A stretch of DNA of 64,000 nt from Sacculina carcini. Taxonomy: Eukaryota; Arthropoda; Thecostraca; Sacculinidae. Every line of letters starts with the position of its first letter. Position 1 is the stretch's first letter. Below are positions 11,123-55,629 of the stretch, piece by piece. The notes beneath the pieces were generated by a model. It worked only from the letters and a program-made list of their open reading frames with translations. It did not search any database and was not told the origin of the DNA. The stretch is taken from assembly GCA_916048095.2 (NCBI GenBank), contig OU696576.1, positions 9,744,988-9,808,987 of the forward strand, in the 5' to 3' direction. The position numbers and the translations under genes were made by a program.

Positions 11123-11897
11123 AATGTTTGCGGTTGTCCAATTTTGTTCAATATATTTGCTTTATTTCTGGATGTTTTTGGTGTTTTTAACGTACGCACC
11201 AGCGCATAAAATTTGTGTTCACATCTGAGTCAGACTTGTGTAGTGCAATTTATATACATGATAGCGGGGTGCGTTCTCTCAGTGAAATCCGGATTTGGAA
11301 ACCGAGCATAGCGGGGAAATTCTAGGGTCCCTACCCACCTAGTAGTGAGGGAGTAAAAATCAGGCTCGAGCTTTTCGCGCGCATCTTCCGAGCTTGCGGT
11401 GTTAAAACCTCATCGAACATTGACAGGCTTGGTTACACTTCTGGGGTATGTCCATTATCAATCAGTTTCCAGCACGAAAAATTGACACAGATTTCAGAAA
11501 TAATTCATATATGATATCTGATCACAAAGCAGAACTGGAGTGTTGCATGATAGAAAGACCACGCAACACACCCCAACACGTCTAGGAAACACGAAACAAA
11601 TGAAGAAACGCAAACTGCCAAACAAAAACTGGTACGAAAATATCCTATAGTATAAACGATCACTAGGTTTGTTCAACACAAAGAAAAAAGGCAAGGATGC
11701 AACTGACTGGCACACAACGGTAATTGACTGTGCACATCACTCGGATAACCCACATAACAGTGTACACACAGTTTTGCATACAGCACAATTGAGCAACGAC
11801 GCTCGTCAAAATCACAGAAAACAAGAATAAATTAGTCAGTAACAGAGCACACAATCACGAGCGTGCAAGTACACTTTGCGCACAATTAACGACCCAA

Positions 11898-11961: not shown

Positions 11962-14900
11962 TCAGTTGGAGTCGGCCGCCGCAAGCAGAGCCACACCGCG
12001 ACTGTAGAAGCTGTGCTCCGACTGCCCGGCCGCCATCTGCATATTGACCGTGAAGAGCAGGTCGGCGCGCGTGGAGTTCAGGTAGACGGGCAGTGTGACA
12101 AGTCGCAGAGTGTCGGTGGTCGGTTGCCGACACCAGCTCAGCTGCAACAGCGGCAGCTCCGTGTGAATGTCCGACGTGAGACGCAGCTGGTTGTCCACAC
12201 ACACGGCGCCTTGCACGTGCACCCCCCGCACCCCCACTGCTCCCGGCTGCAGAGGTGTCGACTGATCGGTGACGACCAGATGTAGTTGCAGTTCCTCGAG
12301 CGACCAGCCGTTGGCCTGAGCGACGCATTGTCGAGTGGCCGTCACGTACGCCTCCGGGTTGAACAGTCTGCCAAGCCACACCTGTTGTCCTCGAAGGGCC
12401 GCTCCGCCACTGCCCGCCGCGCACTCGCTGATCGTCTGCAGTTGACTGGCACGCTGCGAGAAATCGGCCACGAATTGACTGACAGAGGCGGCCGGTGGCA
12501 GGGTGAAGCGTCGCCACGAGGAAGGCACGACACCGCGCACCAGTGTCGCCACCATGGCGCGGTGGTGGTTCGTCTGCTTCTTGGTGCCTTCACACACGCT
12601 CACAACGTCCTCTAAGTCGGCGCGCACACATTCCAACAACCGTACGCCCATGTTGACCTCGCGCTCGAAGAAGCGGTACAGCGGGTCGCGGATGTTCTCG
12701 GCCGTGCGTCGCAACGTCGGCAACTGGCGTGGCAGTAGTTGCAGCCAGCCAGTAGCACTCGACTGCAGCTGTCTCATCCAAGCCGGTCGCTGGTCACTGG
12801 ACAGCGATGACGCTCGTCTCTTGAGACTCTCTGCATCACCGTAGGCCGTCTCATCATCATCCTCCTCTAGACTCTGCATCCTCAACAGCGAGGACAACAG
12901 GTGACGACTTCGTTCAATCAGCAACAGCTGTTCTGCGTTGTTGGGTAGACCGAGCCAGTGGGGAGTCTGGCGGTCCGTCAAACAATCCACCCATTGAAGA
13001 AACTGGTCGCGCACTATTGCATCGGGCATGCACACGGCGGCTCCTTCGTCAGCTCCTTCGTCAGCTCCCCCGTCCTCCACCAGCTGAAACTCGACGTCGA
13101 AGCTGGAAGCCGAGAACAGTCGGCCGAGGAACGATGATAATAGTCGCTGGTCAAAGTCATTGTCAATCTTGCCGCCATACACACACTGGGCCAGTAGCGT
13201 CTGCAGCGCCGTCCACGGCACCTTGTCAGGCGCCAGGTTACTGCGTCCCATTGCCGTCGAGTCAATCCACGCGTCCAGAGTGTCGCATGCCACACGCAGG
13301 TCGGATTCGGTGAACTCGTAGTGTTTGGACCAGCCGAGAGGCGAGTAGCGCACTCGCTCCTGCACAACAGCATGCAGCCACGCTAGCAGGAAGTAGATGC
13401 GTGCGCGCTCCAGCGGCGGTCGCATCATGCGACTAGCCGATACAGCGTTGAAGGTGCGCATAAGGTTGGCGCGGATACCGGGCGGAGGCTCAAACACGAG
13501 GATGCGGCCGGCACGCAGTAAGTTCACGGGCACCTTCGGACTGATCTCCATCGTGAGAAACAGTCGGAAGGACGGATGTGGTCGAAGTGAATGCAGTTTT
13601 TTCTCGAGTTGCACGAGCCAAGATGGTGCCAGATGCACGTTCTTCAGCAGCACCCAGCGACCGGACTTGACGCCGGCGTTGATCGCCCGCTCGGCGTGAC
13701 TGAAGCCTTCGGCAGAACCTATGGCAATGCTCGTCATTGACGCTGCCTTCTCGACGGCCAGGTCGTCGACGCGACCCGATGCGTCGTAGCCATGGACAGC
13801 ACACATCAGCAGCGGTGCCGCCGGGCGCACCTCGTGCTCCACCACGGTCGCCAGGTCCAGTTGGCGCTCGGCGTCGGTCAGGAATTCTTTTCCCAGCACG
13901 GCGTTGACCAACTGCCGGGCGGCCATGATTGTGCGGTCCGGTCTGGCTACCTGCACCAACAACAGACCGTACATGGCCTCGGCCACATACCAATCGGATG
14001 CGTCACTGTTCCACACGTGAGGTACTTGGGTCTCGGGAGTGTCTGAGGCGAGCCACTGTCGAAATTGGGGGCTGCTCACGTGCTGCATCAAGGACGAGAA
14101 CACAGGCAGTTGCTGGGCGAGACGACTCAACTTTTCCACCTGATCGGCCGACAATCCGTCCACTTGACACGAGTCACTGACACGCGACGATACAATGCCC
14201 TCCTGACCGCAGATCAGGAAACTGAGCTCGGCATCGAGATCAACAGGTCGCGATGAGAAACCGCGCAGTCTTATTCTCGTGAAAAGCATGGCCAAAGTGA
14301 GGACATCAGAGTGAAGCATTCCGCGAGATACTCGGCCGAACGACGTGGAGAACAGCGAACTAGTGATCAGCTCAAGACGTTCTAGCGGGTCTGAGACACG
14401 GACCGCGGTGGTCGCCATTGTCAGCACGCTCGTGAATACGTCCAGGAAGAACTGCAGCGAGAACTGATAGAGGAAGTGCACCTGATGCAGCGAGTCAAGT
14501 GTGAAGTAGATACTGCTGCATGCATGAGCTAGCGGCATGTATTTCTCCGACACCAATCCAATCTCTTCGATCACCTTGTCGGTCTTCTCCACTTTACTGG
14601 TTATCTCGGCCGCTTCGCGTTTCAGCGTCTCCAGAGTGGTGATCACGCTGTCGTCGTCCAAAATCTTGCCCTTAGAATCGTTTAGTGCTTGCAAGAGAGA
14701 TTTCTCCAGATGACGCAATCGCAAGCGGAACTCTCCTTGCACCTTCAGCAAGTCGGATCGCTCCTTGTCAATGTCGGGACGCTCCGATTTGAGCACCTGA
14801 TTCAGACACTGCGACTGCAACGACGACCTCGTCACCGTGAAGTTGACGAACGTCACGCGCGAACAAATGTCGGCGGGAAATTCGACGGTCGGGTCGCGAG

Positions 14901-17900
14901 TCGACAGGAAAATGGTGAAGGTTGGAGACAAGTCAATGTCCTGGTCTCCTAGGGTGATCAACACACGACCTCCGGTGCGACGAAGTTCGCGGTTGAGTAC
15001 AGGGTTCAGGATTGGATCATAGTTCTCCACATCCTGAACTAACAAGGGATTGCCGAAGCGCAATGCACTCTCCAGATTCTTGCGGAAACTGTCGTCGAGG
15101 AAGCTGGTCTGAGTGATTTTCTTGCCGGCAAACTCTCGCATGATGAATTCAGTGGCCTGACCCGATGGGTCGATGATGAGCGGGTAGCGATTAAACCGCT
15201 GCAACATGATGGCGTTCTCGGTGAATAGATCGTCAACGGGCAGAGAATTGGCCTGCCAGCGCAGCCTCTGGTCCGGCGAGCTGAGATACTCGGTACGCGC
15301 AAGTTCGGCGCGGTACTGCACTCCGGCCTGTTGCAGATGGCAGCACCAGTTGGCAAACAGCGACTGTCGTAACTGTTGATCCAAGTAGCCAGCGTACGTG
15401 AGGAACGCGGCCGATAACAGCACGTCGCCGATAATCGTCACCATTTGAGAACGGAAGGTCTCACTCGTGCCCATCCAACGCTCCTGTTCATCGCCCAGGG
15501 ATACAAGCAAAGCCATGCTGCGGTCCACCTTGCTCTGCACATGCGACAAATCGGTCTTGATTGCCTGCGCCTGAGCAATGAGCACAGCGTACTCTTCCTT
15601 GTAGCTGGATATGGACTTCTCCAGTTTAGCGATCAATGCAGCAATATCTTCGGCTTTCTTCTTGTTACGACCAGCTTGTGACTCGAGAGAACCGAGTTCG
15701 TTGCGCAAGGGCTCGACTCTTTTAAGCATGTCGGCATAATTGACCTGAGCAATCGCCCATTTGACCATGGGACCGCACGCTGACGAGGCTTTGTTCACTT
15801 TTTCGTAAGAGTAATCCGGATTACTGAGGAAGCGTTTCTTGAGTTTGTCACGAATTTCGTCGGTGATATCTTCAGTCGAGTAGTTGACAATACTCGGTAT
15901 AAAATTGTCTTTCATAATCACGCCGCGAATGGTCTTCCAATCGGACGTTTCCTCTCCAAGCAGCAGACAGATTGACTCCAGAGCAAGTCGTACCAACATT
16001 GGTGGATTGCCCATGGTCCGCAGTTCGACCAAGTTCTGTTTCTTAATCGACTTGACAGCCGCCTGGGCGTCAACTACAGCAGGCTCCACCTTAGACAAAT
16101 CTGCCAGTACATCCTCGCGCTTCACGGCGATTTCCTTGGTCTGTTGTTCCAACTGTACTTGAATCTCTTGCGATTGCACCTTCTGTCGCTCGGCTTCCTG
16201 TTGGTCGACCATCATTTGCCGCAGTTTCTGGTTGGCCGCGTCGTTCTTGGTCTGCAGCTCCTGGGACTTGACAGCCAGCGACTTTTGCATCTCCTCCACT
16301 TGTTCCACTGTCTCGGTGATCTTGTTGAGACCCACGTTCAAATGCAGCTGTTGCTCCTCAAGATCAGCTCGCTTCTCCGAAAGCAATTTGACGAAATGCT
16401 GGATAAGATCCAAGTAGTGGCGCGGAGTGATCACCATTGTTCGCTGTCCACGCTTAGACAGTCGCTGATTGGCGCTGAGTAGCGAGTTGTGCACGTGTAC
16501 AAACGCGTTGACGATGGCATCGCGGTGGGTCGGAGGCTGTGGTAGTTCGCTGTAGGCCACCGGGAAGTAGTCAGGAACTTGCCAGTCGACACGATCGAGG
16601 TCCATTTTGCTCGTGAACTCTTTGCCAACTTGGAAGTAGGCACCGTTGCTCCAGTCTCCGAACCAGTTGAGAACACAACGGTTGAATAAGGCTGGTGAGG
16701 TAGATGCACGGTCCTTGAGACCTTCTGTGCTCGGGTTCATAGTGAAAACCACGTGCAGATTGCGTATCACCTGACTAGTGAACCACTTATAGAGCTCCTC
16801 GTTTGAATCCAGCATGAGTCCTTCACGTTGACTACCCTCTTTACACTGCGTCATTAGTGCAGAAAACTCGTCACCATCGAACAAACCAGGAACTTCACCG
16901 TTTGCAAGCAGAGTGTTCATGCGTTCCAGAAAACCAGAGTCCAGCATATTGGATTCGTCAAGAATGAAGCACATCTTTTCTCCCTTGCAGCCAGACCGTC
17001 GCAGCACCACACGCAGATCCTCGTCAAAATCATCACCCGAATACTTGTTGTGTACCTTGATTTGAAACACCGACAATCCGTTCATCCAGGCGACAAACCG
17101 GGACAGTGTAGTCTTGCCAGCTCCACTCACGCCAATCAACAACAAATGGCCCTGTGGTTGTCTATAGATTCTGTCAATACGAAGAACGTGATCGAGTACC
17201 TCATTAAAGAGCACCAACGGAACATCGAGCTCCTCCTCGTAGAACACCTTGAGACGCGCCTTGACGTACACGCGCAACTCTTCCTGCTCTACCGGGACGT
17301 AGTCCTTGTGCAGCCAGTTAGAATAGAGGATGGGTCGCTTCAAAGCAGTGTCGCAATCAGCGTTGGGGAAGTGTTTGCGCGCGACGGCGTCTATCTTCTC
17401 GTTGGTCCATTGACGCTCCTCGTCATACACAAGGCGATCATGGAACAGTCGAAGAGCCTCATGAGTCCACAGCCTAACCAGAGCCTCGACCGGGGCCGCT
17501 TCCAGCGGCTTGATGGCTTCACATATGCCGCGCACCCACCGTGTCATCTCACGTGGGGAATACACGTAGTGCGGTTGCATCTCCTGTGTGAACCGCTGCT
17601 GTGACAAGAGATAGAATTCAACCATAGCAGCGGTAAGCGGTTCGGCGAACGGTTTCAGTGACGGCTGTAGACGTAGCATGGCCCTCACAAATGTTCCGTA
17701 GATCTGTTTGAGAGACAATTCGCCTGGATAATCGACATACACGACAGGCACGTGTCGCAAAAATCGATGACTGAGCGCCTTACGTCCGGGATCAGTTGGC
17801 GGGTTGCAAGCTCCCACAAACTGAATGCGCTCGAGACGTATCCAAGTGTGATCAGAGATTCGGTAGAAACCTCCGTGTTCAACCAACTGACGCAGGAAAC

Positions 17901-20900
17901 TGATGACTCGCTGAGTTCCGTAATTGTCCATGTCTGGCAAATTGATTTCATCGCAGAACACCACCAGCCATTTTCCCAACTGTATCGGAGCCAATACTAC
18001 TCCGTTAGGCGTCTTCTTGTATTCGCAATAATGATCAAACGTTTTGAAAAGGAGATCAGGTGTAGTTGCGGAGGAAAAATTCAAACCAACCACCTCCAAA
18101 TCAGGAAGAGCTCGCAGTGCTGAAAACAGCGTCATTGTTTTGCCAGAGCCAGGTGGACCACAGAGTACCAGCGGTTTGTGATCAGCGAGCCATGTATACA
18201 ACAAAGCCTCGTGCCTCACGGTATCGACAGTTGGTACAACAACGTCAGGAGCAGCAACCATGTGCGTCTCGACTTCGATTTTGGGCACGCGGGACGACCA
18301 TGGAGTCCACTCTCCCTGAGTTGTCACCTCGAAGTCGATTACACTTGATGAGCTGTGCGGCAGACTGATAGTTGTGCTGTCGCGTATGAAGTTGCTCAGT
18401 TGATCTCTTACTTTGAGCTTGCCGTCTCCCGAGAAACTCCACAAGATGGCGTTGACGAGAGCCTTGGGCACATATGCCTCCAGTTGCTCAGCTGTTAGCG
18501 TAAAATCAGGATGCTGCGCATTATACTGCAGCAGGTTGCGACACGATTGGTTGAGCATAGAAAACAGTGAGGACAGCGCACGCAGACGCGTAAAATCCAT
18601 CACGTGATCGAGTTGGCGAGCATACTGGAGACAGCGCATGACCAGACCATCTGCGTTCATGTGAGGCTGCAAGAGAGCCACCACTTGACGCTGCAACTGA
18701 ATGGCAGGAGACAATAACTCTTCATTGTCCGTCTTGTCCGTTTTCTGACTGGAGTCGGTAGTGCGTACCTCGTCGTTATCTTCTAGTGAGATGTTGCGTA
18801 AACGGCCCAAGTAGTGCTGGAAGATCATCTCAGTGGAGAGGACATCTTCGGAAAACCACACCATACCACACCGAGACACAGTCGCAGGAGTGGCGTGCTT
18901 CAAATCTTGTACCTCGAACATGATGCGCACATTGGGAGGAACAGCCAAACGCTCTCCATTCGGAAGTGTCAAGAGTTTATTGTTGTCAAGTACTGAATTG
19001 AGATTCTCCACCCACTCAGGATCGACGTCGCCGTCGAATATGATCCATTGGCGTTTGCCGATTTCACCGCGAACATTGTCAATGATCTTGCGCAACGTGT
19101 GCGTGAAGATTCCGTCATTCCACTCGCGGGTGTTTGGATCCAGTACTCCGTACAAAGCTTCCTTGGAGATAGCTTTGGGATCAATGACATGAGCGACACC
19201 CTCAACACCCTCAAATCGTTCCAGAGCCTTGATGAGCACACGCCACGCCGTCGACTTGCCGCTGCCGCTCGGTCCAACCATCATCAAGCCGTGGTTCAGC
19301 TGAGTGATCTGGTACAGCTGCAGCACTTTTTCGAACCAGCCAGTGCCGAGGTCGTCGCTCTGTCCCAGCACCAAGTGTTGTTCTTCACACACATCCTTGA
19401 TATGCCTCCGCAGATCCGTCATGCTCGAGCGCTGATACTCGACACCCGGGAACACGTCAGACAAGAGTGAAAACAGCAGTGGAATGTCAGAGGCCACTAA
19501 TTTGGGCACCATTGTCTCGCATACCGACTGAATCAAAATCTCCTGCTCTGGTAGATTCTCGGCAATTTTCGCATCGTCAATCGTCTCGCCCTGGGCTACG
19601 AGATGCTCACGGATTTTGAGAATACGACTGCGCTTGACACTACCAGCGCTATTCAACACCGACTTGAGAGCGCGTAGACTGAAGTCGTAGTGAGAATTAT
19701 TGGAAAGTTGTTCGTTGCAAAGTTTGAAAAAGGGTACAATTTTACTTGCGAGTTTCTCGGCAGAACGGAATCCCTGAGAGAACAGTGTAACCTGAGCAAT
19801 CATCTGAAGGTTCGGCCTGTTCATAGCGAGCGAGCGGAATAGCTTTTTCAAGTTGTCGGGCAAATTGGAACGGCCAGCATAACCCGGATTCATTGTGATG
19901 AAGATGGCAATCTGAGCACTGATCGACGTCTGCCGTCCCACCAGCTCAACACTCACAGCCTTGTCGGGTGTCTCATCCTGCATTTTTAAGGCTTCCTGAA
20001 TGGTCTGGATCTGTTGAGACACGGCTGAGAGCATACGCTCTTCGAGACGATTGAACTCGTCAAAGCAGCCCCATGCACCCACTTGACACAGACCCAGAAA
20101 AATGCGACCCATAGCCTGTACATCGAACGTCTCATCGCAGTTGAACACGAGCACGAACTTGCCCAACTGATGACCAAGAGCTTTCACTGACTCTGTCTTA
20201 CCCGTGCCGGCAGGACCAAACGGAGATCCGCCCAGCTTAGCGTGCAACGCCTGTGTCATAGTCAGGTAGCAACGGTCCGTCAATGGAGTCTGCACAAGAC
20301 GCTCCTGCACGCCCAAATACTCGAATCCGTACTGGAAGCGTGCGTTGGCCATGTGAACCGACAGCTGTCGCAATGGGTTGGTCTGCTTAGCGTTCCAGTA
20401 GAAACGCATACATTGCAACCAGGCAAAGTGTCTGGGCGAGTCGACCTTGTCTTTGATAAGAGTCCTCAGTACCGAGCGCTTGTGTACAAACTCATTGACC
20501 AGGTGCTCCAGTTTGAGCCGACGCATGGCCGGCTGTTCCTGTAGCACAGAATCGGCCATCATGTTCAGCACCTCCTGTACATTGTCGGCGATCGCTTGCA
20601 CCTTCTGTAAGGCATCATTCGCGTTGAGCGCAGTCTCCACCTCCTCCGACCACCATACCTGCATGGTGAGAACCACCAACTGTGCGGGGAAATCATCACA
20701 CCAACCGAGAAACTCCGCTGGAGTGCCGCTTTCAGTCATCCAGCGACGCAGCACGACCAGAGAACGAGCTAGTAGAGACGCCAGAGTGGCGCACACACTA
20801 CGTTCAACGGCACTCAACCACTCGTTGATCTTGGGGTTCTCGCTGAGCAGCACCGGCTTCTCGAAAATAACTTCTTCTCCCTCTGACGACGCAATTCCGC

Positions 20901-23900
20901 GAATCTCGGTGTTTTCTTCGTTCAGCAGAATGGCAGTGATTCCTGCAAACATCTTCTTGAAGTGTTTCTGCAAACGGGGGATGTTCTTACTGTTGCCGAT
21001 AATTTCCAATAGATCTTCATCACCAACAAAGTAGAACCGAGGGAAACCAGATCTCTCTCGCTCCAAATACTCGCCTAACGCCTTCTGAATTTTACCCAAT
21101 AAATCAGCTAGACGTTCCAGAGCACGCATGACTCCTTGAATATTGAGCACGTCAAGCACCATCGGAGATCGGCTGACTTTCTTCATGAGAGTCAGAAACT
21201 CTGTGCTGATGCTAGCAAACCGAGAAGTCTCTACAGGAAGCAGAGTTTTGATGTCAGAACTACCGGAAAACAGGCCTTCAAGATACACCCAGCGGCGCTG
21301 TACAACTATCCAGACATCGAACGTTGTGTCAATACGGTTCAATTTCTCGTCCCAGGCGGCAGCATCCTCTTCAAACACTTTGTAATAAGGTGATAACTTC
21401 ATTGCCGCAAGAGAATTGGTGTGTTCCTTGACCTTGGAGAAAAGATCGTCCCATCCGCGAATTACCTTGCATTTATTTTGATAGTTGATCAGATCCAATT
21501 GATACGTCTGCCAACAATCGCGCACCTGCTTCAAAAACTCCTCCAACGCCATTTCGCCCTGTGCCACCAGTATGGTGTCCTTAACAATGCTCTCGTTCTT
21601 TAGCAAGTTCACGTCCCAAACCTGACCAAGAGTCAACTCGCTCAGCTGCCAACGAACGCGTAACTGTCGCTGCAGCTGCGTCCAGTGACGTTCCTTCAGC
21701 GCATCCGATTTCAGCTCCACAATCAACATGTTGACCTTGGTGTAGCTCTGCAGCAGTTTCTTCACATACTCGTAAGACGAGTATTGACGCAGTCGTGTCG
21801 GTAACTCTTTTAGTTGCGTGAGAAGAGCATCCAATTCTTGACGCAACTTGCGTGGTTGAACACTGAGCCACGGCTTTTCCTTCAGCTCATCTAAACGCTC
21901 CCACACCTTACTCAACTCAGACCAAACACCCTTTAGATCGTTAAGCTCTTCAAAAGCCACCATCAGCCTCTCGTCAGCCGCCGACGCACCAATGTCTCCA
22001 AGCTCAAGAGCTTCCTTAGCCCGACTCACATTGTCCCGCTCCTCCTTGAGTCTCTGCAGCCTCGCCTCAGACAGTTGCAGTTGCTGAAGCGCGTCTGTGG
22101 GTCGCAGATGACCCTCGACGGGCTTCTGCTTCTCCCACTCGTTGAGATAGTCATTAGTTCGACTCTCAACCGCCTTGTCTTCGGCGACAATCTTCATCTG
22201 CAAACTGGCCACCTGAGCTTGTATCGACGAATCCTTACGCTTGATAATTTCATTGAAAGCGCCCCACTCACCTTCAATGTTGTCCACATGCAGCCAGTTG
22301 CTTGGGAACTGAAATCGATGACGCTCAAGAACACGTTGCCCGTTTTTATAGAGTTCAACCTCGGCTTCCCATTGCTTCATCTGCCGCTTCAACGACTGCA
22401 CATACGTGATAAACGTCACGGCATCAGACGTGTTTGCAGCCTCGATGCTCTGCAACTCCATGTCTCCACGAGATTTGGACACTGTCGTGTGAAAATCGCT
22501 CATCTGAGTGCCCAGCAGCGTTCCAAACTTGCCCAGAATCTCCTTGTGAATTGCGTCATACTTCAGGGACACTTTCGACTGCACCTTGCCATAATCGATT
22601 ACGACAGGCCCGAATGAACGCCTCGTCTCAGACGTATCAAATGTGGCTCGCCGCTTCTTCATCTCTTCGACGCAATTGATCCATAGATTGATATCATCAC
22701 TCAGCCGAGATATCACCTGTTCCGTGTTGAGATCCCAGAGTTTCTGGTAGGAGAGCCACTCGCGCACGTACGAACACGTCTGTTGATAGATCTCGTTGAC
22801 GGCTTGATAGGCGGCGGCCGTGACGTTCATGTAGTCTGGCATTGCCTGCAACAGACTCTTGTAGGTGTTCGGCGCCTCACTGCGACCAATACCCACTTCG
22901 TAGCGAGACGACTGAATGCGGTTCAGCGTTATGATGACGTTCTGCCAGGCAAACAATTGGTTGAGCAACTGACAGCGCACGTCCTCCACCGACGGGTACA
23001 AGTGCAAGTTGTTGTAGATAATGCGCAGCTCGTGCATGACTGGTGCAATGACCGGCTCTCCCCCGGGACGACTGGGCGCAGTGTGGCTTGGCTCCGTGTC
23101 CATGGACGTGTCGGTCTCATCGCGAACTCCTTGTAGAGCACGCGTCCATGCTTGAACGCCCGCCTGAAGTCTGATAGCCAGCTTGGTCGAGATCGCGTCA
23201 TCCAGTCTGTTCACCCACACTCCCAGGTTGCTGTACTTGTGCAAACTGAGATCGTCGACCGCCTTCTGAATCTTTGCCAGAATCTCGGCAAAAGTGGCGT
23301 GCGAGTAGGTGCACGTGTCGAGCGACTTGATATCGACGTCGATCTGATGCTGTACGTGCAACAAGTGGTCGACCATCTCCTGCAAGTTGAATGCCGACTC
23401 AGCGAAGCGCTGCACATACGAGTCGAGTTTGTACGACTCCCAGATCAACTGCGCTCCCTCGGCGATCAGCGCATGATTGGAGTTCTTCAATCCAGCTACG
23501 AGTACTTGAGCGTTGGCGTGATCGTCCATCTTGTCGAGTGTGCGCTCGTACGTGCGTACGCTCTCGATCAGCGATATGGCGAATGGGTACATCTGGTTGG
23601 ATGTGTGAGCCTTGTTAACAATGGCCAGGGGCACGCGAAAGCCGAGGTTCTTGAGATTGCGCACCTCCTTGCTCAGAGTGATTATCTCCGGTAGGAAATT
23701 AACCTTAAGCTTGAGAACATTGCCTTTGCCCGTTCGACTTCGCTGCGACTCAATGGCAAATAGCAAGCCGGAAACACCGAGATTACGATCTTGCACTTTC
23801 TTGGCCCACTCGGCGAATATGTCGGCCGTGTTGAGCTTGGCGCGGAAACTGTCGCTGTCGGCCTTCAGTTTCTGACCCTCCACGTGATTCTCCCAGCCGC

Positions 23901-25944
23901 AGCCGAGCACATCTTCCACTCTGCTGACGTACATGCTCAGCTGATGGTCAATCTGGCGCGCCCACAATATCGAGCCCGACACGGGCGGAATATCGCGCAC
24001 CTCGCTCATCCGACACGCCTGACTGTGTTGATACTGCACCTTGAACTTCTCGTGCAACGACTCAATGTCCTCTTTAACACGAGTGATCAACTGTGTCTGA
24101 TACTCGCGGATGGCGCCGCGAATGTGCGGCCGCACAAACAGCGCGTTGAAGCGCGAGAAGATGCGGAACATCTCGTTGGCGTTCTTGGCTGTGCCCAGTT
24201 GATCGCGCAAACGAGCAGTGATCCTCGTTTCCACACGATCGATTCGTTCATCGTAGCGGCGCAGTGCCGCCTCCCACAAGTCCACGCCGTCGCGACCAAT
24301 ATCCAAACAGTCGACGTCCTTCACCTGCTCGTAGGCCAAGTGCACTTCCTCGATGGCGTTGGCGTCTGCCATGTCGACAGCCGGTGTCTGAGACACCCCG
24401 GTGCCGTCGTCGGGTGCCTGGGCTGACTCCGTTGTGTCTTCGGCAGACACCGAGTTGGGCAGCACACTGGGACGAAGCACGCGCACAATCACCGTGCGCA
24501 ATTGCTCGTGCTGGCAGCGGAAAGTGCGCAGCTGATCCATGCGTGCCTGAAGTCGCTTGTGCGCCGGGTGGATGCGCCACACCATCTTGACGTGCTCGTG
24601 CTTCTTCTTCATGAGGTCTCGCATCAGACTGAGTAATTTTTCGTACTCGTCGTCCCAGCACACAAACACATCGAAGCATTGCGTCATCAGCGCGTCAAAA
24701 TCGTCGAAGCTGACTTGCATCAGTCGTCGTCCACCGACTATTTTCAGCAGCTGGTTCAAAAGATCGCGTGAGATAGCTTCAGTCAACCGCAGCGCCCGAC
24801 CCAGGGAATACTTGGTGTTACGAATTTTACGCATGTGGTGGAAAACGTTGCGAAGAGCCACACGGAGCTGGTCCAGTTCTGAGGCAGCGAGTAACTCATT
24901 CAGAGGGAAATCCTTCATCAGAGGATTGTAGTCGTTGACAGTGGCCAGGGCTTGCTTGAGACCGGTGTCAGCGTCGAAGCTGATGGTGGCGTGAAAGCGT
25001 TTGCCGTGACGCAAAATGTCCATAGTAAGAGCCACCTCAGGACTGTCACGCTTCTCTTGAATGCGCAACAGTGCTCGTTCTAGGTTCAACCAGAAGCTGA
25101 CCTCTTGTATGGCTGTGCCAGACGCCGGGTCTCGCTCCAAGCGCGTCACTTTCTGAATCTCGCGAATCCACCGGTTGACGCCGTTCTGCAGCTGGTTAAG
25201 AAAACTAGAGTCCTCGATTTTGTCGCCGAAATCGCTGACCTGGGGTCGTCGGCCCTCTTCAGCACACTTCTTGATCACCTGCGCCACATACGGGTTGATC
25301 GGCAGTGTGATCTCTGGAATGTCAATATTCTGCTGTAGATGCAACAGTCCCATCTCCAGCTCGGAGATCTTCTTCTCGACGGTGGGTGCCATCTTGTCGC
25401 CATCTCGATCACCCTTGCCCGACTCCTTGATGAACGATTTGAAGAAAGGTGACACGGCATTGCTGACCAGCATGTGTAATGTCTCGTACGGCGAGCCCTC
25501 GCTCAGCTTCAATATGTGCAGCTGCGCGGTAAGCGGCTTCTCAGCGTCCAACACGGCTACGTGCTTAATCAGCACAAGTCCAGTGACTCGCCCACCCATA
25601 TAGCGAACCTGGTTTGACAATAAATACTGCACGGGTTCCCGACCGTCGTCATCCTGGCCCGACTCCGACTCCTCGTCTTTGTTGGAGACGCGCTCGACAA
25701 AAAGCACACGAGTTTGTGGGTCGGCAATTAGCTTGCGCAAGCACTCGCGGTGAGCGTTCGTGGTGAGGGCAGCATCTAGCGCACGAACCCCGGCAGCGTC
25801 CGCCTCACTGCTCTCTTCCAGCATAGGCGCACCAGCGCGCCGCACGAACGCCGACACCTGACTGATGTCGTACAGCGCCGCCTGCTCCGAATCCATCATC
25901 TGCCTGCCGTCCCCGGTGTCTTCTGTGCCGCCAGGATCGGCCAT
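11962..25944 (-). CDS. DYNC1H1: Cytoplasmic dynein 1 heavy chain, complete and intronless
   Basis: One unbroken frame of 4660 codons from ATG 25942-25944 to TGA 11962-11964, close to the usual length of the family (about 4650). This is the motor subunit of cytoplasmic dynein 1, which walks to microtubule minus ends. The tail (1 to ~1400) carries the dimerisation and intermediate-chain-binding region ([45 protein letters not shown]). The AAA+ ring has four P-loops: AAA1 GPAGTGKT (1910-1917), AAA2 GPSGSGKS (2224), AAA3 GPPGSGKT (2596) and AAA4 GVSGAGKT (2938). A coiled-coil stalk (about 3180-3480) surrounds the microtubule-binding tip, with [18 protein letters not shown] leading into it. AAA5, AAA6 and the C-terminal domain follow. 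All P-loops keep their key lysine, so the gene looks functional. Animal orthologues normally have dozens of introns. The CDS is GC-rich and there is no poly(A) trace of retroposition. Confidence 0.97.
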
Positions 25945-27195
25945 TGTCCCAGCCACCAATACTACTGTACCTCTAATGCCACTAACCAGACCAGAACGTG
26001 CTCACAGCATTCACATATCAGCAGATATATTTCAGATCACTCAATAACACTCAAAACATACACAATGGTAGTACCTGCGGAAAGAACACATATTGAATAA
26101 TAGAACAGGTTGAAAATTATGTAAAACAAAGAATAAATGCATTGACGGCAATCGAAATTCTCGAAATGGGAGCGAAGGTCGACCGTGCAAGGTTGGATTG
26201 GTTGAATTGCCGGTGTATTTCTTGTTATAGTTGTTCATCAATTGTCTATTTGACTTCTTCCTTCTAGTATATCACTAAATAATTTCATCCATTTAAACCA
26301 AGCAAAACTCCCCCATTAAGGCAACAACTTGTAATAAATATTCACTTACAATGCACCAACTGTTTCACCAAGTATCTTCAAACATCAGATCTTTAATTTA
26401 TTTCACATAAAAATTCACATTGATATGTTATGTATTTCAAATTTGTAGACAAACGCATGAAATTTAGCAAGCAATTCTTATCATGGAACGAGTTAAAAAT
26501 ATATAATCACTATAATAATGAAGCATACCACCTCAGATAACAGCACATCAATCACCAACGTCAGGTAAAAGACCACTCCTACTTACATTTGACGCATTGG
26601 ACCATATTTAAGCGCAAATATTAGAATATAATATTTTAGCACTAGTCCGATATTGAATGGCAATATGATCTAATTTTTTGTAAATAGCGCCGAAAATTAA
26701 TTCTGGTAATATTTTTAATACATAAATGGCATTTCTGAGGTGAACAAATCTTCCGGTAGAGCATTATTTTCTGCTCTGCATTTGAGCTTAGCCAGAGATT
26801 AATGCAGTATTCATGAATAACAATTTTCTGCTTATCTGGATTATTTCATTCGAATAAATTTGTTTGGCCACAGTAAAATAATCATGCACAGAGGATTTGC
26901 GTAGCCAGGTACAAAGTCGCTATAAACTTCTTTTTAAACCTCAATTTGAACCAAATTGAACCTTAAACCTCTGATTGATTTTTTACGGTGTTTTGAGGTG
27001 TTGTGGTATAGCTTTATCATTCTATTGAACTCTTAGGTCTGTTTCAAAGGGGTTTGGGGAGCTGCTGATATATGCTGTGCCAGACATGTGCGAGTTATGA
27101 GGTGCAATTAAACATTTGAATGATGAATTTGGCAGGTTTTCACGCACCCTGCCGTGCGTCTTGGAAGCGGCATTACTTCTGGTAGATTCTGAACC
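25945..27195. promoter_or_regulatory. Divergent spacer between dynein and COQ2
   Basis: 1.25 kb of AT-rich DNA between two diverging genes, so it should contain the 5' ends of both. No exon, RNA gene or repeat with clear ends was seen. Confidence 0.5.
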
Positions 27196-28864
27196 ATGCT
27201 GAAATTGGTATGTCGACGTTGCGTAGTGCAGCGGTCAAAACTTACCGAATCAGCAATGAACTCGCCTTTGTCCGCTACTTCATTCTCGCTGCTGCGTCGG
27301 CTTTGTCACGTGCACCCGCCATCATCGCCGCCATGGCCTCAAGCAGTGCGGTCTGCAGCGCCAGTCACACAGAACTGCTCTGATGCTGGACAGGGGCGGC
27401 ACGTGACACCGACGTTGGCGCAGCGTATCACAGCCTCCTGTCCTCGCGCCTCGCAGCCCTATCTGCAGCTGATGAGGCTGGACCGACCAATAGGTCCTGC
27501 CTACGCTCTTCTTACTGCTGCTTATTTCTGCTCTACTGTCACTGCTGCCCTTCAGGTGTTATATGCAGAACAGTGGCGGCGCCAGGATTTCCCGATGGGG
27601 GGGGGGGGGCTGAGGGGTGCTAAGGAAAAAGTTGAGGGGGCTTGGCGAAGCATGGAGAACTACACTCGAACGCTGACTACATAATATTAAAATACTGGGG
27701 CACACTGATTCAGTCCTCGAACTTAAACCATAATTACAGGACTTCATTTGCAGTGGTATGAAATTGTAATGTCCATGATTATGATTTTAGGGGGGCTTTG
27801 CACATTTTTGGGGGCTCTAGCCCCCCGAGCTGCCCCTTGGCGCCGCCACTGAAGCAGAACAAACTATTTCACCTTCTGTTTTATCTACCACCGCCTGCTA
27901 CGTTAAATTTGATACAATGTTTTAGCAAAAGCCAGGTGGCAATGACCGCACTAAATCTGGCTTGTCATTATTGTTGCTTCTACGTGTTAAACTGGTCGTT
28001 TCGGCAGGCATCTGAGAGAACTTGGTAGCTTCATTATTGCTTTGTTAATCCAGGTTTTCGTGCATAAGTAAAGTAAGTAAATGACATTTATAACACTCCT
28101 TTCAGTACAAAATAGAACAGAATAATATATAGAATAAAATAGACCACCACACACACATTCTCACACTCACACACACATTCTCACACACACACACACTCTC
28201 TCTCACACACGCACACACACATGCAATCATCATTCAAACAAATTGTCACACATTTACGACGCACAGAGTAATGGAAGGAGATATTATAACATTGCGACCT
28301 TTTAATTCAAGCGCTTTTTGCCGGACGATTCGAGACAAGGGTTTTCACTCTTATTGTCTCGAATCCTTCTTCGGTTCGCAGTGTGTGTGTCTGTGTGTGT
28401 GTGTGTGTGTGGGTGCAGGTTCGTGGTTGTTATTTTGGCCGTGTGGATGGGCGTTGGTGCAGGCACAGTCGCCCGCCCATCTGCCCGACATGCACCTGGT
28501 GTGTGTGTTTGCCGCTGGCGCGCTGGTCATGAGGGCCGCCGGCTGTACGGTCAATGACCTCTGGGACAGAAAGATTGACCGCCAGGTGTGCTGCCTGTGT
28601 CACTAACAATACATTGTTGCACGTCTCACAACTACACTATATGTGTGTATGTGTGTAGGCGTGTGTATTTCAGTGTGTGTGTGTGTGTGTATTTGAGTGT
28701 CTGTGTGTGTATTTGAGTGTGTGTGTGTGTATGTGTGTGTATTTGAGTGTCTGTGTGTGTGTGTGTATTTGAGTGTGTGTGTGTATTTCAGTGTGTGTGT
28801 GTGTGTGTGTATTTGAGTGTGTGTGTGTGTGTATTTCAGTGTGTGTGTGCATTTGAGTGTGTGT

Positions 28865-28910
<46 letters not shown>

Positions 28911-29501
28911 TTGAGTGTGTGTGTGTATTTGAGTGTGTATTTGAGTGTGTATGTGTGTGTATTTGAGTGTGTGTGTATGCGTGTGTATTTGAATGTGTGT
29001 GTGTGTATGCATGTGTATTTGAGTGTGTGTGTGTGTGTATTTGAGTTTGTGTGTATGTGTGTGTGTGTGTATTTGAGTGTGTGTGTGTGTGTATGTGTAT
29101 TTGAGTGTGTGTGTATGTGTGTGTATTTGAGTGTGTGTGTGTGTATGTGTGTGTATTTGAATGTGTGTGTGTATGCATGTGTATTTGAGTGTGTGTGTGT
29201 GTATTTGAGTTTGTGTGTATGTGTGTGTGTGTGTATTTGAGTGTGTGTGTGTGTGTATGTGTATTTGAGTGTGTGTGTATGCGTGTGTATTTGAGTGTTT
29301 GTGTGTATGTTATCGATGTGTCTCAATGCTATTTCTCATTATAACATCATTATTGTTAGCAGTATTGTGAGCAGGCTTCGCCCGTCTCACAACTACACTC
29401 CGTTTGCTTGTATGTGAGTGATTGTGTGTGTGTGTTGTGTTTGTATACGTATGTGTGTTTGTGTGTGTATATCCGTGTGTTTGCATGTATTTGAGTGTGT
29501 G

Positions 29502-29544
<43 letters not shown>

Positions 29545-31583
29545 GTGTTTCTTAGTGTGTGTGTGTGTGTTGTGTTTGTATAAGTATATGCGTTTGTGTG
29601 TGTGTGTGTGTGTATCCGTGTGTTATGTATCTATTTGTATTATATATCCGTGTGCTTGTATGTATTTTAGTGTGTGTGTCTGTGTGTGTTAGAGAGTGTT
29701 TGTATGCGTGTGTATTTGAGTGTTTACGTATGTGTGTGTGTTATTGTGTTCGTATGCTTCTGTGTGTGTATCTGTATGTATATGTGTATCTGTATGTGTG
29801 TGTATGCACGTGTGGTTGAATGTCAGGTAGAGAGGACGCGATCTCGTCCCCTGGCCAGTGGTCGTGTGTCTGTGACTGCGGCACTGCAGCTGTTATCCGT
29901 GCAGCTGGCAGCTGGTGGCTGGCTGCTACTGCAGTTGAATTGGTCAGCCGTGCAGCTGGGCGTGGCTTCACTCGCGCTTGTTGCCTTATACCCGCTAGCC
30001 AAGCGCTTCACTTACTGGCCCCAGCTGGTGCTCGGTGTCACGTTCAATCTGGGCGTGCCTATGGCGTACGCGGCCGTGTACGGCGACCAGTGGAGCTCCG
30101 TGTGGCACCAAATGGCTCCACTGTATGTGGCGGCGGTGTGCTGGACTCTCGTGTACGACACTATCTATGCTCACCAGGCATGTTTATTTGTCTGTCTATC
30201 CATTCATCTGCGCTCACCGAGTCTGTCTATCTGTTTGTATCTCTCTGTATCTCTGTCTGTATATTTATCTATCCATCTACTCTCACCAAGTCTGTCTGCC
30301 TGTCTGTTATGTCTGTGTATCTGTCTGTATCTGTATCCACCCATCTATGATCACCAGGTGTGTCTGTATGTCTGTCTGTCTGTGTATCTACGTTCGTCTG
30401 GTGTATATGTGAGTATACACAGATGACACAGTGGTTGATGATGTGCGGGTGATGTTTCAGGACAAGCATGACGACTTGCAGCTGGGTATAGGCTCGACGG
30501 CGTTGTTGTTTGGCCAGGCCACTCCACGCTGGCTGGCCGTATTTGCCGGCGGTATGTGTTCTGCTCTGCTATTGGCCGGCGTGACAGCCAATCAGAGCTG
30601 GCCTTACTACTTGTCGGTGACGTGTGTGGCGGCGCATCTCGCCAGACAGGTCACTGCATTGCTTACGTCATGCTGCTGTATTCTATTGTGTGTGTGTGTG
30701 TGTGTTTCTCTCGCTGTCTTCTCTCTTTCTCTGTGAACTTGGTCCTCAATCCTCAGCTCTCCCACTCTCTATGTTCTCTTGTGCTACAGGAGTATATTAA
30801 CCTCACACACACATATGCACACACAGATAGGCGAGCACCAGTTGTCTTAGCTCAAATTATCACGACACTGCACACTGCAACTGCTTATTAACTGTAGCAC
30901 ACACACACACACATACACACACACACACATATACACACACATACACACATACACATACACACACTGTGTGAAATGGTGTTGTTTCTATGTTGTTGTTACT
31001 TTGATACTGTCACGCACCGTTGTGTATGTGTGTCTGTATGTATGTATGTGTATGTGTGCTTGTGTGTGTGTGTCTGCATGTATGTATATGTGTGTGTGTG
31101 TGTGTGTTTTTATGTATATGTGTCTCCATGTGTGTATGTGTCTGTATGTATGTGTGCTTGTGTGTGCGTGTGTGTGTATGTATGTGTGCTTGTGTCAGTA
31201 TGTATGTGTGTTTGTGTCAGTATGTATGTGTGTTTGTGTCAGTATGTATGTATGTGTGCTTGTGTCAGTATGTATGTATGTGTGTGTGTGTGTGTGTGCA
31301 GATAGTGAGTATGGACGGCAATGACGCAACAGACTGCGGGTCCAAGTTTCGCTCCAATCGCTGGCTCGGTCTGGTATTGTTCATGGGCATATTGTGTGGT
31401 CGCCTCATGACTGACAGTCCCGCTAACTCCTGCTCTCCAGCCGCCGCCATCATCACTGACACCACCCGACCTCTCAGTGTGACGTCACCCGTGCCTGAGT
31501 TGTGCATGTGTGACACCGTGTGTGCAGCCACAATCACCAGTCAACCTGGCATGCGAGACACAGACAGACAGACCAACAGTTAG
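27196..31583 (+). CDS. COQ2: COQ2, 4-hydroxybenzoate polyprenyltransferase, five exons
   Basis: Exons 27196-27493, 28419-28585, 29827-30177, 30461-30649 and 31302-31583 join in matching phases (1,0,0,0) to give 428 residues. The enzyme attaches the polyprenyl tail to 4-hydroxybenzoate in the mitochondrial inner membrane, in ubiquinone synthesis. The N-terminal ~80 residues are Arg/Ser-rich without acidic runs, as in a mitochondrial presequence. UbiA-family signatures follow: YLQLMRLDRPIGSWLLFWP; the first Mg-diphosphate motif NDLWDRKID at 145-153; YPLAKRFTYWPQLVLGVTFN; and the second motif YDTIYAHQDKHDD at 265-277. Intron 3 starts with GC (CAG|GCATGT) and falls exactly between AHQ and DK of the second motif. 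Exon 1's donor (GTCCTG) is weak but gives the expected PIG-SWLL junction. The protein continues about 55 residues past the usual end (GILCGRLM) with a Thr/Cys/Pro-rich tail. Introns hold a hAT MITE and (TG)n arrays. Confidence 0.92.
27571..27851. mobile_element. hAT-type MITE in COQ2 intron 1
   Basis: 281-bp non-autonomous element with terminal inverted repeats CAGTGGCGGCGCCA and TGGCGCCGCCACTG. It is flanked by an 8-bp target duplication with one mismatch (ATGCAGAA at 27563-27570, AAGCAGAA at 27852-27859). The 8-bp duplication and CAG...CTG ends are hAT features. The interior has G-runs and no coding sequence. A related right-hand fragment lies at 53136-53219. Confidence 0.8.
28138..28210. 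repeat. (CA)n-rich microsatellite in COQ2 intron 1
   Basis: Cytosine/adenine dinucleotide runs mixed with CTCACA, inside the first COQ2 intron. Confidence 0.8.
28632..29820. repeat. TG-rich minisatellite filling COQ2 intron 2
   Basis: Almost the whole intron is (TG)n broken at regular intervals by TATTTGAG. Between 28660 and 29300 this gives an imperfect minisatellite of about 20-30 bp units. It continues with TG-rich sequence to the acceptor of exon 3. Long open frames on both strands here are products of the repeat. Confidence 0.9.
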
Positions 31584-34705: not shown

Positions 34706-37700
34706 TTATATACGTTTGTCGAGGCCTGTCGTTCTCAAATAGATGAATATTTGTCGCATGATGAAATGAGCTTCTTGCGTCTGTGTCGCCCCTCCGAGTA
34801 GTGTTGCTGTGTCCACCGTTTCGATGGAGCGATGCTGTAGTCGTTGAAGAAGTCGTCTTCTTTGATCTCTGTATTTCCAGCAATCAAAGAGAGCGTGGTG
34901 GACCGTTTCATCGACGCCATAGCAATGTGGACACGAGGATGTTGTTGAGAGTCCCAGTCTAGCCATGTGTTGGTTGAGGCGTGTGTGTCCCGAGCGAAGT
35001 CGGAATAAACTGACGGCTAGTTGTCTGTTGCTGGTGAGCGACCAGATGGTCTCGGTTGATCGGACGCGATAAATGTTCTGCAGCAGTTCTGGTAGTGATT
35101 GAAGGTTGCGCTGATAGCAGGCCGTTGTCAGTCTTCTCCTATATTCATCGTGTATGCTCTCCCATGTGGTGATCGTGGAAATATTTTGTGCTGCTGTCAA
35201 TGCTCGTTTGGCGGCTCTATCAACCATTTCGTTTCCGGCTATACCTTTATGAGCTGGGACGTATTGGAGAACTATTTGTCGGTCACTGTTATTTATTGTG
35301 TGGAGAAGGTCATGGATGTGGAATATCAAACCTCGTAAATATCTTGGGTCTCTATTTTTTATGAGATATAGGCCACTCTTGCAGTCTGTATATATGACAA
35401 ATCGGTCGTATTGTGAATTTTGAATATGTATGAGTTTGATTGCTTGGTATATAGCGAAAATTTCCGCATGGGCTATCGATGATCCTCCAGGAAGCTTCCA
35501 AGTATCAGTATAGTTAATGGTTTGGGCGAAAAGAGCTGCTGATGTTAGCTTGCGTTTAGGATCATGTGAGCCGTCTGTGAAAATTTTAAAATGGCTACGG
35601 TACATTGTATGGTTCATGCAGTTGAAAGCCTGTTCTAGTTCGAAATCTGTATAATTTGGTTTAGTTGGATAATCTGGTGTGTACATATGTGTGAATATAT
35701 GATCTAATGAATTTGACCACGGTGGAATGGGTGAAACTGAATCATGGACGTAAATTGTGTTCTCCGTTTCAGCTGCTGGTACTGATACGTTGTTTCTTGA
35801 TATGTGGATGTTGGCCACTCGGTACAGGGGATGAGGGTTTATGACTGGTGTATATTCGATGCGTGTCCGTGCTTGTGCTTTCACGGAGACTCTGAAGTGT
35901 TCAAGTGTCGTAGATGTTGATATATCAAGTAGGCTGGTTTCAGCTAGCAATATGTTTATGGGGGTTGAAGGAAGGGCTCCAGTGATTATTCTAGCTGCAT
36001 TATTGACCAGAACTTGTAGTTTTTTCAGCGAAGAGGCGGATGCTTTTCCATATAGTGAGCTTCCATAACTCAGTCTCGAAAGAATTGCAGATCTGTAGAA
36101 TATTTTTAAAACATGTGCTGAAGTACCCCAGCTTCTGCCAGTTAAACTTCTCATTATTGCCAAGCGCTTGTTTCCATCCACTCGAAGTTTCTCAATATGA
36201 TGTTGCCAATTCAAGGCTGGACCGTTCAATTCCATCCCTAGGAAACGATGATGTGTTGTGAATGCTATTTGTTGGTTGAATAGTGTTATGCTGGGGAGTA
36301 TGTTGGTAATTCTTTGTTTGGTAAAATACATCCAACAACTTTTTTCTATGTTGATGGTGAGACCAATGTTGGTTAGCCAACTCCCTATCACTTCTAGGTC
36401 GAATGACACATTTGTAATGGCAGACTCTATTGTTGGTGCTCGGCTGAAAAGCGTCATGTCATCCGCGTAAATGATCATCTGAGAATGTTGGGGGCTCGGC
36501 ATCGTCGCCATAAGTATGTTAAATAAAACTGGGCTCAACGGGGATCCTTGTGGGAGTCCTTGTGTGATTCTCTTCTGTCGGGACAAATGACCATTCACTG
36601 ATACCTGGAAGGAGCGTCCTTCCAAAAACGATTGGAACCATTTCAGAGGGGACCCTACTACTCCGCACTTCGCCAATGTAGATGTCATGACTTTTCTGGG
36701 TACATGATCAAAAGCGCCATGCACATCTAGATAAATACTAACCATGACCTGTTTGGACTCATATGTGCTAATTATGTTGTCATTAAAATGGGATATGGCA
36801 TCTATTGCACTCCTTTGGGGTCGGAATCCCATTTGATGTTCCTTTAGAATCTGCCGTGTTTCAATCCACCACGAAAGCCTGTGTGCAACCATTCTTTCTA
36901 ATGTCTTCCCAATACATGATAACATTGATATAGGACGATATGATTCTGGAGAAGAAAGGTCTTTTCCTTCCTTAGGCAGTGGGACTATGTAGGCAGATTT
37001 CCAAATGCCGGGGAAAATTCCACTTTGCCAACTATGGTTAAAGGAATTTAAAAGTTGATATTGGCAGTCCGCAGGGAGCTGTCTAATGAATGGGTAGATA
37101 ATTCCATCTGGGCCTGGGGCTGATCTCCGTGGGAGTACCTTGAGCTGTGCCTGAAATTCATTGTGATTGAATGGAAGCGCAAGATCCTGGTTGACTCCAA
37201 TATAGGCGCATTCATCCGTTAGTTCATCTCTATAAGAATGGTTTTGGGGGGTAATGGCACCTAATCGCGCTGTTAGGTGCTTTGAAAAGTATTCCGTTTT
37301 TTCTTGATCATTGCTGAATAAATGTCCAAGGTATTTGAGTGGAAATGTTGATTTTCGGCCTTTATTATTCATGGAATTTAGGAATCTCCAAGTTGAGCTG
37401 ATACTGGATGTATGTTTAAGTTGTGAACAATGTGTCTTCCAGGCTGATCTTTTGGCATGCAGTATTATCTTGCGACTTGTTGCATTCAACTTATTGTAGA
37501 GTATTCGGTTTGTTGAAGTCGGGTTCGATCTCCATTTTCGGTATGCTCTTCTTCGCTTGTTTATTGAAATTTTGCATGCCTCTGTCCACCAAGGTACTCC
37601 TGCTTTGTGTGTAGATTTAGTTTTTGCGCAATGGAACACCTCAGAAGCAGCCTGTTTCATTATGCTTGTTATTTCTTCAATTTTCAGTGTAGTGTGTTGC

Positions 37701-38470
37701 TGTGCTTGCATCTGTTGACTAACTTTGATTCTATAATGTGGCCAATTTTGTTCAATAATCTTCCAACGGGGTAAACAACCCACTCTCATACTGGCTGTCA
37801 ACTCAAAAAAGGATCCTATGATCGGTATGTGATCGCTGGGGAGGTGGTAGCCTTGTTCAAATGTTCCATTCTGGAACAACTGGTCGCCAATGAACAGGTC
37901 TAGTGTAGTTAATGCACCATTTGCGGGATTTGTTCTCGTGGGCAATCCTGGGGGTGAAAGGAGATCCAAGTGGCTGTGTTGCGTCAGGAATGAGAACAGT
38001 TCATGCCCGGCTGCATTCTGAAGAGCTGGAGTTAGCATTGGGTTCCACATAATATGATGGGCATTGAAATCTCCAATAATCATTACTGGTGAGGATAATT
38101 GGGATAAATAATGATCCAGAGCCGCAAGAGTCAGCTGGTTTGGGGGAGCATACATTGCGGCTATGGAAATGACTTTATTACTGATAGTGACTTGAGCAGC
38201 CACAACATCTATTGTGTTGAATGGTTGGTGTACAATAGGTATTGGCGAAAATGTTAATGAGCTTCTTATTGCTAGTAATGCTCCTCCACCTCTTGTGTCT
38301 CTATCTTTCCTAATAATACTAAAGTCATTAATTATGCAGGTACCCGCTTGATCTAACCAAGTCTCGGTGATGCCTAGTATATGGATTTCGTTATCTTCTG
38401 CAAATAATTGTATTTCTTCTTGTTTATATTTAATTGATCTTGCGTTCCAGAGTGCTATTTTAAGATTCAT
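34706..38470 (-). CDS. LINE ORF2: endonuclease, reverse transcriptase, RNase H
   Basis: 1254 residues, ATG 38470 to TAA 34706-34708. An apurinic-type endonuclease lies at the N-terminus with N9 (WNARS), E36 (ITETW), D134/N136 (GDFNAH) and H214 (SDH), the family's catalytic residues; this domain nicks the target. The reverse transcriptase follows (LPQGSPLSP, then YADD near residue 667). RNase H comes next: FTDGSHD near 965, HAEIFAIY, YTDCKSG and PAHKGIAGNEMVD carry the D-E-D-D set. A cysteine-histidine cluster (CPHC...H...C) lies near the C-terminus. No internal stop or frameshift. The start overlaps the end of ORF1 by 11 nt in another frame, so translation may depend on reinitiation. Confidence 0.93.
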   Translation of the reverse strand: MNLKIALWNARSIKYKQEEIQLFAEDNEIHILGITETWLDQAGTCIINDFSIIRKDRDTRGGGALLAIRSSLTFSPIPIVHQPFNTIDVVAAQVTISNKVISIAAMYAPPNQLTLAALDHYLSQLSSPVMIIGDFNAHHIMWNPMLTPALQNAAGHELFSFLTQHSHLDLLSPPGLPTRTNPANGALTTLDLFIGDQLFQNGTFEQGYHLPSDHIPIIGSFFELTASMRVGCLPRWKIIEQNWPHYRIKVSQQMQAQQHTTLKIEEITSIMKQAASEVFHCAKTKSTHKAGVPWWTEACKISINKRRRAYRKWRSNPTSTNRILYNKLNATSRKIILHAKRSAWKTHCSQLKHTSSISSTWRFLNSMNNKGRKSTFPLKYLGHLFSNDQEKTEYFSKHLTARLGAITPQNHSYRDELTDECAYIGVNQDLALPFNHNEFQAQLKVLPRRSAPGPDGIIYPFIRQLPADCQYQLLNSFNHSWQSGIFPGIWKSAYIVPLPKEGKDLSSPESYRPISMLSCIGKTLERMVAHRLSWWIETRQILKEHQMGFRPQRSAIDAISHFNDNIISTYESKQVMVSIYLDVHGAFDHVPRKVMTSTLAKCGVVGSPLKWFQSFLEGRSFQVSVNGHLSRQKRITQGLPQGSPLSPVLFNILMATMPSPQHSQMIIYADDMTLFSRAPTIESAITNVSFDLEVIGSWLTNIGLTINIEKSCWMYFTKQRITNILPSITLFNQQIAFTTHHRFLGMELNGPALNWQHHIEKLRVDGNKRLAIMRSLTGRSWGTSAHVLKIFYRSAILSRLSYGSSLYGKASASSLKKLQVLVNNAARIITGALPSTPINILLAETSLLDISTSTTLEHFRVSVKAQARTRIEYTPVINPHPLYRVANIHISRNNVSVPAAETENTIYVHDSVSPIPPWSNSLDHIFTHMYTPDYPTKPNYTDFELEQAFNCMNHTMYRSHFKIFTDGSHDPKRKLTSAALFAQTINYTDTWKLPGGSSIAHAEIFAIYQAIKLIHIQNSQYDRFVIYTDCKSGLYLIKNRDPRYLRGLIFHIHDLLHTINNSDRQIVLQYVPAHKGIAGNEMVDRAAKRALTAAQNISTITTWESIHDEYRRRLTTACYQRNLQSLPELLQNIYRVRSTETIWSLTSNRQLAVSLFRLRSGHTRLNQHMARLGLSTTSSCPHCYGVDETVHHALFDCWKYRDQRRRLLQRLQHRSIETVDTATLLGGATQTQEAHFIMRQIFIYLRTTGLDKRI

Positions 38471-39989: not shown

Positions 39990-40119
39990 ATTGGATGAAC
40001 CACGTTGTGAAATCACTGCCTGGGATACGCCGTGAAATCACTAACACTAAGCACTTTGAAAACCACTGAATGCTGTAACAACGGAACACAAGCTGGCGTG
40101 ACCAATGTCAAACAAAGAA

Positions 40120-46968: not shown

Positions 46969-47041
<73 letters not shown>

Positions 47042-48362: not shown

Positions 48363-48405
<43 letters not shown>

Positions 48406-50526: not shown

Positions 50527-50599
<73 letters not shown>

Positions 50600-52563: not shown

Positions 52564-52595
<32 letters not shown>

Positions 52596-54119: not shown

Positions 54120-54184
<65 letters not shown>

Positions 54185-55613: not shown

Positions 55614-55629
55614 CATGGGCATAGAACCT

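Follow-up and report, generated by a model that had tools for sequence, protein, structure and literature searches.

A single-exon cytoplasmic dynein 1 heavy chain gene and further intron-free dynein heavy chain genes in the genome of Sacculina carcini

Vertebrate dynein heavy chain genes, which encode the same protein family at the same lengths as the genes described here, are divided into many exons; in the available part of the comparative study, elephant DHC1 has 77 exons (from a partial sequence) and the exon numbers visible for the dynein family run from 43 to 92 (PMC3162530), whereas seven dynein heavy chain genes of the present genome have one coding exon each. An arthropod with many intronless genes has been described in the mite Aculops lycopersici, whose 32.5-Mb genome is poor in transposable elements and in which about 84% of the genes are intronless; reverse transcriptase-mediated loss was proposed there, and some genes combine lost with retained conserved introns (PMC7738191). 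The present genome is likewise that of an arthropod with many intronless genes and with genes mixing loss and retention, but, set against what the excerpted text of that paper covers, it differs in its size (264 Mb), its recent LINEs, and the interruption of most of its myosin and CCT-type loci. Amphioxus SYCP1 has a single coding exon and 5' UTR introns, and its multi-exon parent was lost; as presented in the cited portion of that study, this is one gene of about 3.2 kb (PMC5803294), compared with seven dynein genes of 12 to 14 kb here, and relocation is seen for SYCP1 only. The reverse transcriptase model of intron loss, in the sections of the source that we draw on, shares with our case the joint loss of neighboring introns and the exact removal that we propose, but it predicts a 3' bias, of which the mosaic dynein gene described below shows none; in the same sections the mechanism of animal intron loss is still debated (PMC3652778). 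Earlier work already covers intronless genes, the replacement of parent genes by retrogenes, and intron loss mediated by reverse transcription. A search of open-licence papers found no account of animal dynein heavy chain genes without introns; as far as that literature shows, what is new is the presence of seven cleared genes of 12 to 14 kb in an otherwise interrupted, LINE-bearing genome.

The gene lies in a stretch of 64,000 nucleotides, analyzed as a whole and here called the window (C8:9744988-9808987), of an assembly whose 43 contigs (labeled C1, C3, and so on) total 264,436,087 bases. The first-pass annotation had described a single open frame of 4660 residues with four P-loops in an animal genome, and protein, domain, and motif searches bear this out (Table 1). 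The frame lies on the minus strand, which the first-pass annotation had left unstated, and is intact from its ATG (25944) through its stop codon, whose last base is 11962. Human DYNC1H1 and residues 2 to 4655 form one continuous alignment (7129 bits; phmmer), and cytoplasmic dynein 2 reaches at most 1458 bits among the 60 matches listed. The Pfam domains follow the expected order (DHC_N1, DHC_N2, AAA_6, AAA_7, AAA_8, MT, AAA_9, AAA_lid_11, and Dynein_C), and the P-loops, four in number, begin at residues 1910, 2224, 2596, and 2938. Membership in the cytoplasmic dynein 1 heavy chains is shown by full-length similarity that includes the tail, with DYNC1H1 as the closest protein, and by an architecture of an AAA ring with four P-loops, a stalk, and a C-terminal domain. 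Across 50 mononucleotide shuffles of the coding sequence, the longest stop-free run was 237 codons; GC content is 65% at third codon positions, compared with 45% in the window. The assembly contains 94 matches to Chitin_bind_4, an arthropod cuticle domain of a family that we take to be essentially arthropod, which supports the animal origin; neither a match to COX1 nor an exact 36-base TTAGGG repeat was found in the assembly. The window gene is the only DYNC1H1 found in this animal, and we read it as protein-coding, constrained, and devoid of all coding introns through loss.

Table 1. Features of the window and the complete single-exon dynein heavy chain genes of the assembly (positions are those of the window unless a contig is named)
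Feature	Location	Strand	Basis or remark
DYNC1H1 coding sequence, single exon, 4660 aa plus stop	11962..25944	minus	open reading frame, protein and domain matches
Candidate 5' UTR intron	26075..27245	minus	home-made splice-site scores
AATAAA, likely DYNC1H1 poly(A) signal	11161..11166	minus	motif scan
Proteasome alpha gene (PSMA7-like), single exon, 246 aa	10382..11122	plus	tail to tail with DYNC1H1
STARD3-like gene (MENTAL and START), single exon, 527 aa	7587..9170	minus	neighbor
UbiA prenyltransferase gene (COQ2-like), interrupted	28430..30658	plus	at least three pieces matching successive UbiA parts
Sodium:neurotransmitter symporter gene (SLC6-type), interrupted	45303..54528	minus	at least four pieces
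Non-LTR retrotransposon ORF (endonuclease, reverse transcriptase, RNase H), 1254 aa, intact	34706..38470	minus	possible reverse transcriptase source
Complete single-exon dynein, 4660 aa	window		DYNC1H1
Complete single-exon dynein, 4682 aa	C31
Complete single-exon dynein, 4021 aa	C23
Complete single-exon dynein, 4468 aa	C25 at 7.19 Mb
Complete single-exon dynein, 4588 aa	C25 at 0.59 Mb
Complete single-exon dynein, 4261 aa	C1 at 2.63 Mb
Complete single-exon dynein, 4037 aa	C6

The first-pass annotation implied that DYNC1H1 is a singular case, and this is not supported. A search with the AAA1 domain (AAA_6) gave 38 pieces at 14 loci (44 of 44 candidates scored; pieces grouped manually), and setting aside a pseudogene on C7 leaves 13 dynein heavy chain loci, of which seven are single-exon genes (4021 to 4682 aa), one is a mosaic, and five are interrupted. 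Apart from DYNC1H1, the single-exon genes have as best human matches DNAH10, DNAH7, DNAH17/9, DNAH5, DYNC2H1, and a diverged relative of DNAH7, these classes being best PDB matches of 3' stretches of 1665 to 1831 aa. The diverged relative (C6:513931-526044; 1002 bits to DNAH7, with DNAH12 next at 807 bits) is fast-diverging and shares 28.7% identity with this genome's own DNAH7 orthologue. Pairwise identity among these six proteins and DYNC1H1 is only 22 to 35%, indicating that the losses struck separate old paralogs. The C7 pseudogene, 5'-truncated and with stops, is 98.0% identical over 8057 bp to part of the intact C6 gene (C7:11668394-11676449 against C6:518425-526481); we rejected it as direct proof of retroposition, since the match reaches about 440 bp past the stop and beyond the AATAAA, as in a DNA duplicate.

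At the five interrupted loci, aligned pieces are mostly 27 to 113 aa long, although two extend further, over 178 and 233 alignment columns. Some intron sites are common to different interrupted paralogs: DNAH7 position 1366 phase 1 to C11:3.83M and C1:13.59M, and position 1498 phase 1 to C9 and C11:4.91M, while at position 1306 phase 2 C1:13.59M shows both sites and C11:3.83M the acceptor alone. These shared sites, read by eye, lend some support to loss over original absence; the ancestral intron number is inferred from other animals, such as the 77 exons of elephant DHC1 in the available part of the source (PMC3162530). In the mosaic gene on C3, unbroken stretches of 519, 817, and 952 aligned reference residues alternate with pieces of 26 to 166 aa; its longest exons are 41 to 49% identical to DNAH7. 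Runs of neighboring introns are missing from it between kept introns, a joint loss that is visible in this gene and not in DYNC1H1 itself, and breaks are retained near its 3' end.

Complete intron removal is patchy and family dependent in this genome. When pieces that shared a contig and strand and lay no more than 25 kb apart were counted as one locus, the whole domain lay in one frame at 1 of 17 myosin-head loci (65 of 154 candidates scored, so that interrupted loci are undercounted), at none of 11 CCT-type loci (56 of 56 candidates), and at 4 of 14 proteasome loci (32 of 32 candidates); one CCT-type locus nevertheless has 331 of the 490 positions within a single frame, and a second lies in a 1871-codon frame. 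Kinesin motor domains were whole in one frame in 26 cases (23 stop-free), compared with 29 further clusters that include decayed ones (122 of 134 candidates), and FAT domains gave only three small pieces (3 of 3 candidates). The myosin, CCT-type, proteasome, and kinesin counts rule out a generally intron-poor genome. That all giant genes are intronless is unsupported, given that FAT-domain genes and most myosins lie in small pieces, and the CCT results lend no support to the idea that highly expressed housekeeping genes are intronless. The stop-free whole-frame kinesins are mostly 395 to 642 codons long, with one of 1960. Seven near-equal fragments of kinesin, each carrying five stops, form an array at C2:11.89-11.95 Mb and are probably decayed tandem copies.

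Because many dyneins compete in a search with the motor domain, the tail (aa 1 to 1400) was also used as a query in the assembly-wide search for a second, intron-containing dynein 1 heavy chain that the first-pass annotation had proposed as a check. The tail matched its own locus well, and its other three matches, at 20 to 22% identity, were other dynein frames (6 of 6 candidates scored). A 3000-residue motor query, for which 16 of 101 candidates were scored, gave at least 24 matches; among the long ones other than the gene itself the best are 26 to 29% identical, with single conserved stretches at 35 to 38% and short pieces at up to 53%. Neither search found an intron-bearing DYNC1H1 parent in the assembly. 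The annotation had left a choice between intron loss and a maintained retrogene; a retrocopy beside a living parent is ruled out, since the tail matches only its own locus at high identity, while loss in place and an old retrogene that replaced its parent are not fully separable. That cDNA sequence was built into the genome during assembly is highly improbable, because the DYNC1H1 frame has its own flanks within a 10.7-Mb contig, including a 5' flank, an AATAAA, and neighboring genes, and because six other dynein genes are alike, the seven lying at seven places on six contigs and each running into unique flanks.

The main rival to loss in place, and second to it in our ranking, is that a full-length DYNC1H1 cDNA was inserted at the present site as a retrocopy and gained a promoter while the multi-exon parent was lost, with the same happening to the other six genes. 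Such replacement allows for the lack of a detectable intron-bearing parent, and it is documented for amphioxus SYCP1, where, in the cited portion of that study, the new 5' UTR also has introns (PMC5803294). The spread of the 26 whole-frame kinesin domains over ten contigs suggests active retroposition in the lineage, though 8 of them lie together at C11:1.88-2.06 Mb, so that tandem duplication accounts for part; the 26 taken together look like a large intronless kinesin expansion. As the first-pass annotation had stated, DYNC1H1 has neither a poly(A) trace nor a target duplication: A-runs of 8 or more are absent from the 1200 nt after the stop, where the AATAAA is the sole AATAAA or ATTAAA, and its two 1.5-kb flanks share no exact direct repeat longer than 10 nt (9 to 12 nt in 15 shuffles), although both marks would fade with age. 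Replacement would also require at least six separate full-length insertions of 12 to 14 kb, with a promoter gained and a parent lost every time, and it leaves the C3 mosaic unexplained. We consider it rather unlikely, if well worth keeping in view.

Our best reading, which we hold with evenly balanced confidence, is that introns were lost repeatedly and gene by gene via reverse-transcribed spliced mRNA, probably in place. Spliced dynein mRNA would have been copied into cDNA by reverse transcription, probably through enzymes of LINE type, and recombination of this cDNA with the gene on the chromosome would have taken out runs of introns exactly. The 14-kb coding region could have been cleared by several partial conversions or by one near full-length conversion, with the promoter, and perhaps a 5' UTR intron, staying in place; the other dynein genes would have been cleared separately, and the process may have halted part-way in the C3 gene. 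The C3 mosaic, the candidate 5' UTR intron, and the intact LINEs fit this course of events, and runs of missing introns between kept ones are what partial cDNA recombination predicts. We suggest more tentatively, as a possibility that we would not yet favor, that reverse transcription in this lineage repeatedly rewrites multi-exon microtubule-motor genes of 12 to 14 kb in place and spares most families, the C3 gene having been caught part-way.

Several observations count against loss in place through cDNA, the interrupted CCT-type loci and the missing 3' bias being among the strongest. The C3 gene has kept breaks near its 3' end and so lacks the 3' bias expected if reverse transcription were simply primed at the poly(A) tail, and in place of kept 5' introns DYNC1H1 has only a candidate in its 5' UTR. 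For this candidate the donor GATTCG/GTAAGT at 27245 is paired with the acceptor ttctttccgcag ending at 26075, the second-best acceptor in the scanned stretch; slightly better scores go to another donor (26586) and another acceptor (27620). As a 5' UTR intron it is an unproven motif pair, and this, together with the mostly weak counterparts of its acceptor upstream of the six other single-exon dynein genes, also weighs against the reading. Further difficulties are that 14 kb is very long for a single cDNA, that introns are kept at the CCT-type loci (strong germline expression being assumed for these genes), and that the one recent dynein copy examined, on C7, looks like a DNA duplicate and not a retrocopy.

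A long cDNA would be unnecessary if introns had been deleted from the genome stepwise, one or a few at once and without reverse transcription, and such deletion could likewise yield mixed genes such as that on C3. Each of the seven genes would have had to undergo exact deletion dozens of times while keeping almost no residual insertions; a single private insertion of 20 aa or more occurs among the seven single-exon proteins, and DYNC1H1 itself has no coding introns and almost no private insertions in a comparison of these seven proteins. The distribution also looks two-sided, with intron-free coding genes beside genes in ordinary pieces. We regard stepwise deletion as unlikely, more so than retrogene replacement.

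Within one family of one genome, seven genes are cleared of introns, one is half-cleared, and five are ordinary, all of them being long; this is an unusually clear place for studying intron loss. Comparison with related species could directly test joint loss of neighbors, the direction of loss, and the role of genomic position. The case bears on whether transcripts as long as those of dyneins can undergo reverse transcription in germ cells, and on whether dropping dozens of splice steps is tolerated or favored in motor genes.

Around the gene, DYNC1H1 and the two genes on its 3' side (PSMA7-like and STARD3-like) are all single-exon genes, and the UbiA and SLC6-type neighbors are interrupted. 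The LINE-type frame of the window lies 8.8 kb upstream of the DYNC1H1 start, and stop-free 1254-aa frames of this kind occur at 99 to 100% identity in at least six places, the window copy included (37 of 11,156 candidates scored); with an upstream 518-aa frame that has no Pfam match, the element spans 34706-40016 on the minus strand. The window also contains a 3-kb satellite with a 24-base unit (CACACAAACACGGTAACATAATAA; 1-2972), a 13-base tandem repeat (ACAGAAACATTAT; 55269-55616; 26.8 copies, 97% match), and, at 56142-56212 on the minus strand, a match to a tRNA model (33.4 bits, with no ARAGORN call) that is perhaps a tRNA-derived SINE.
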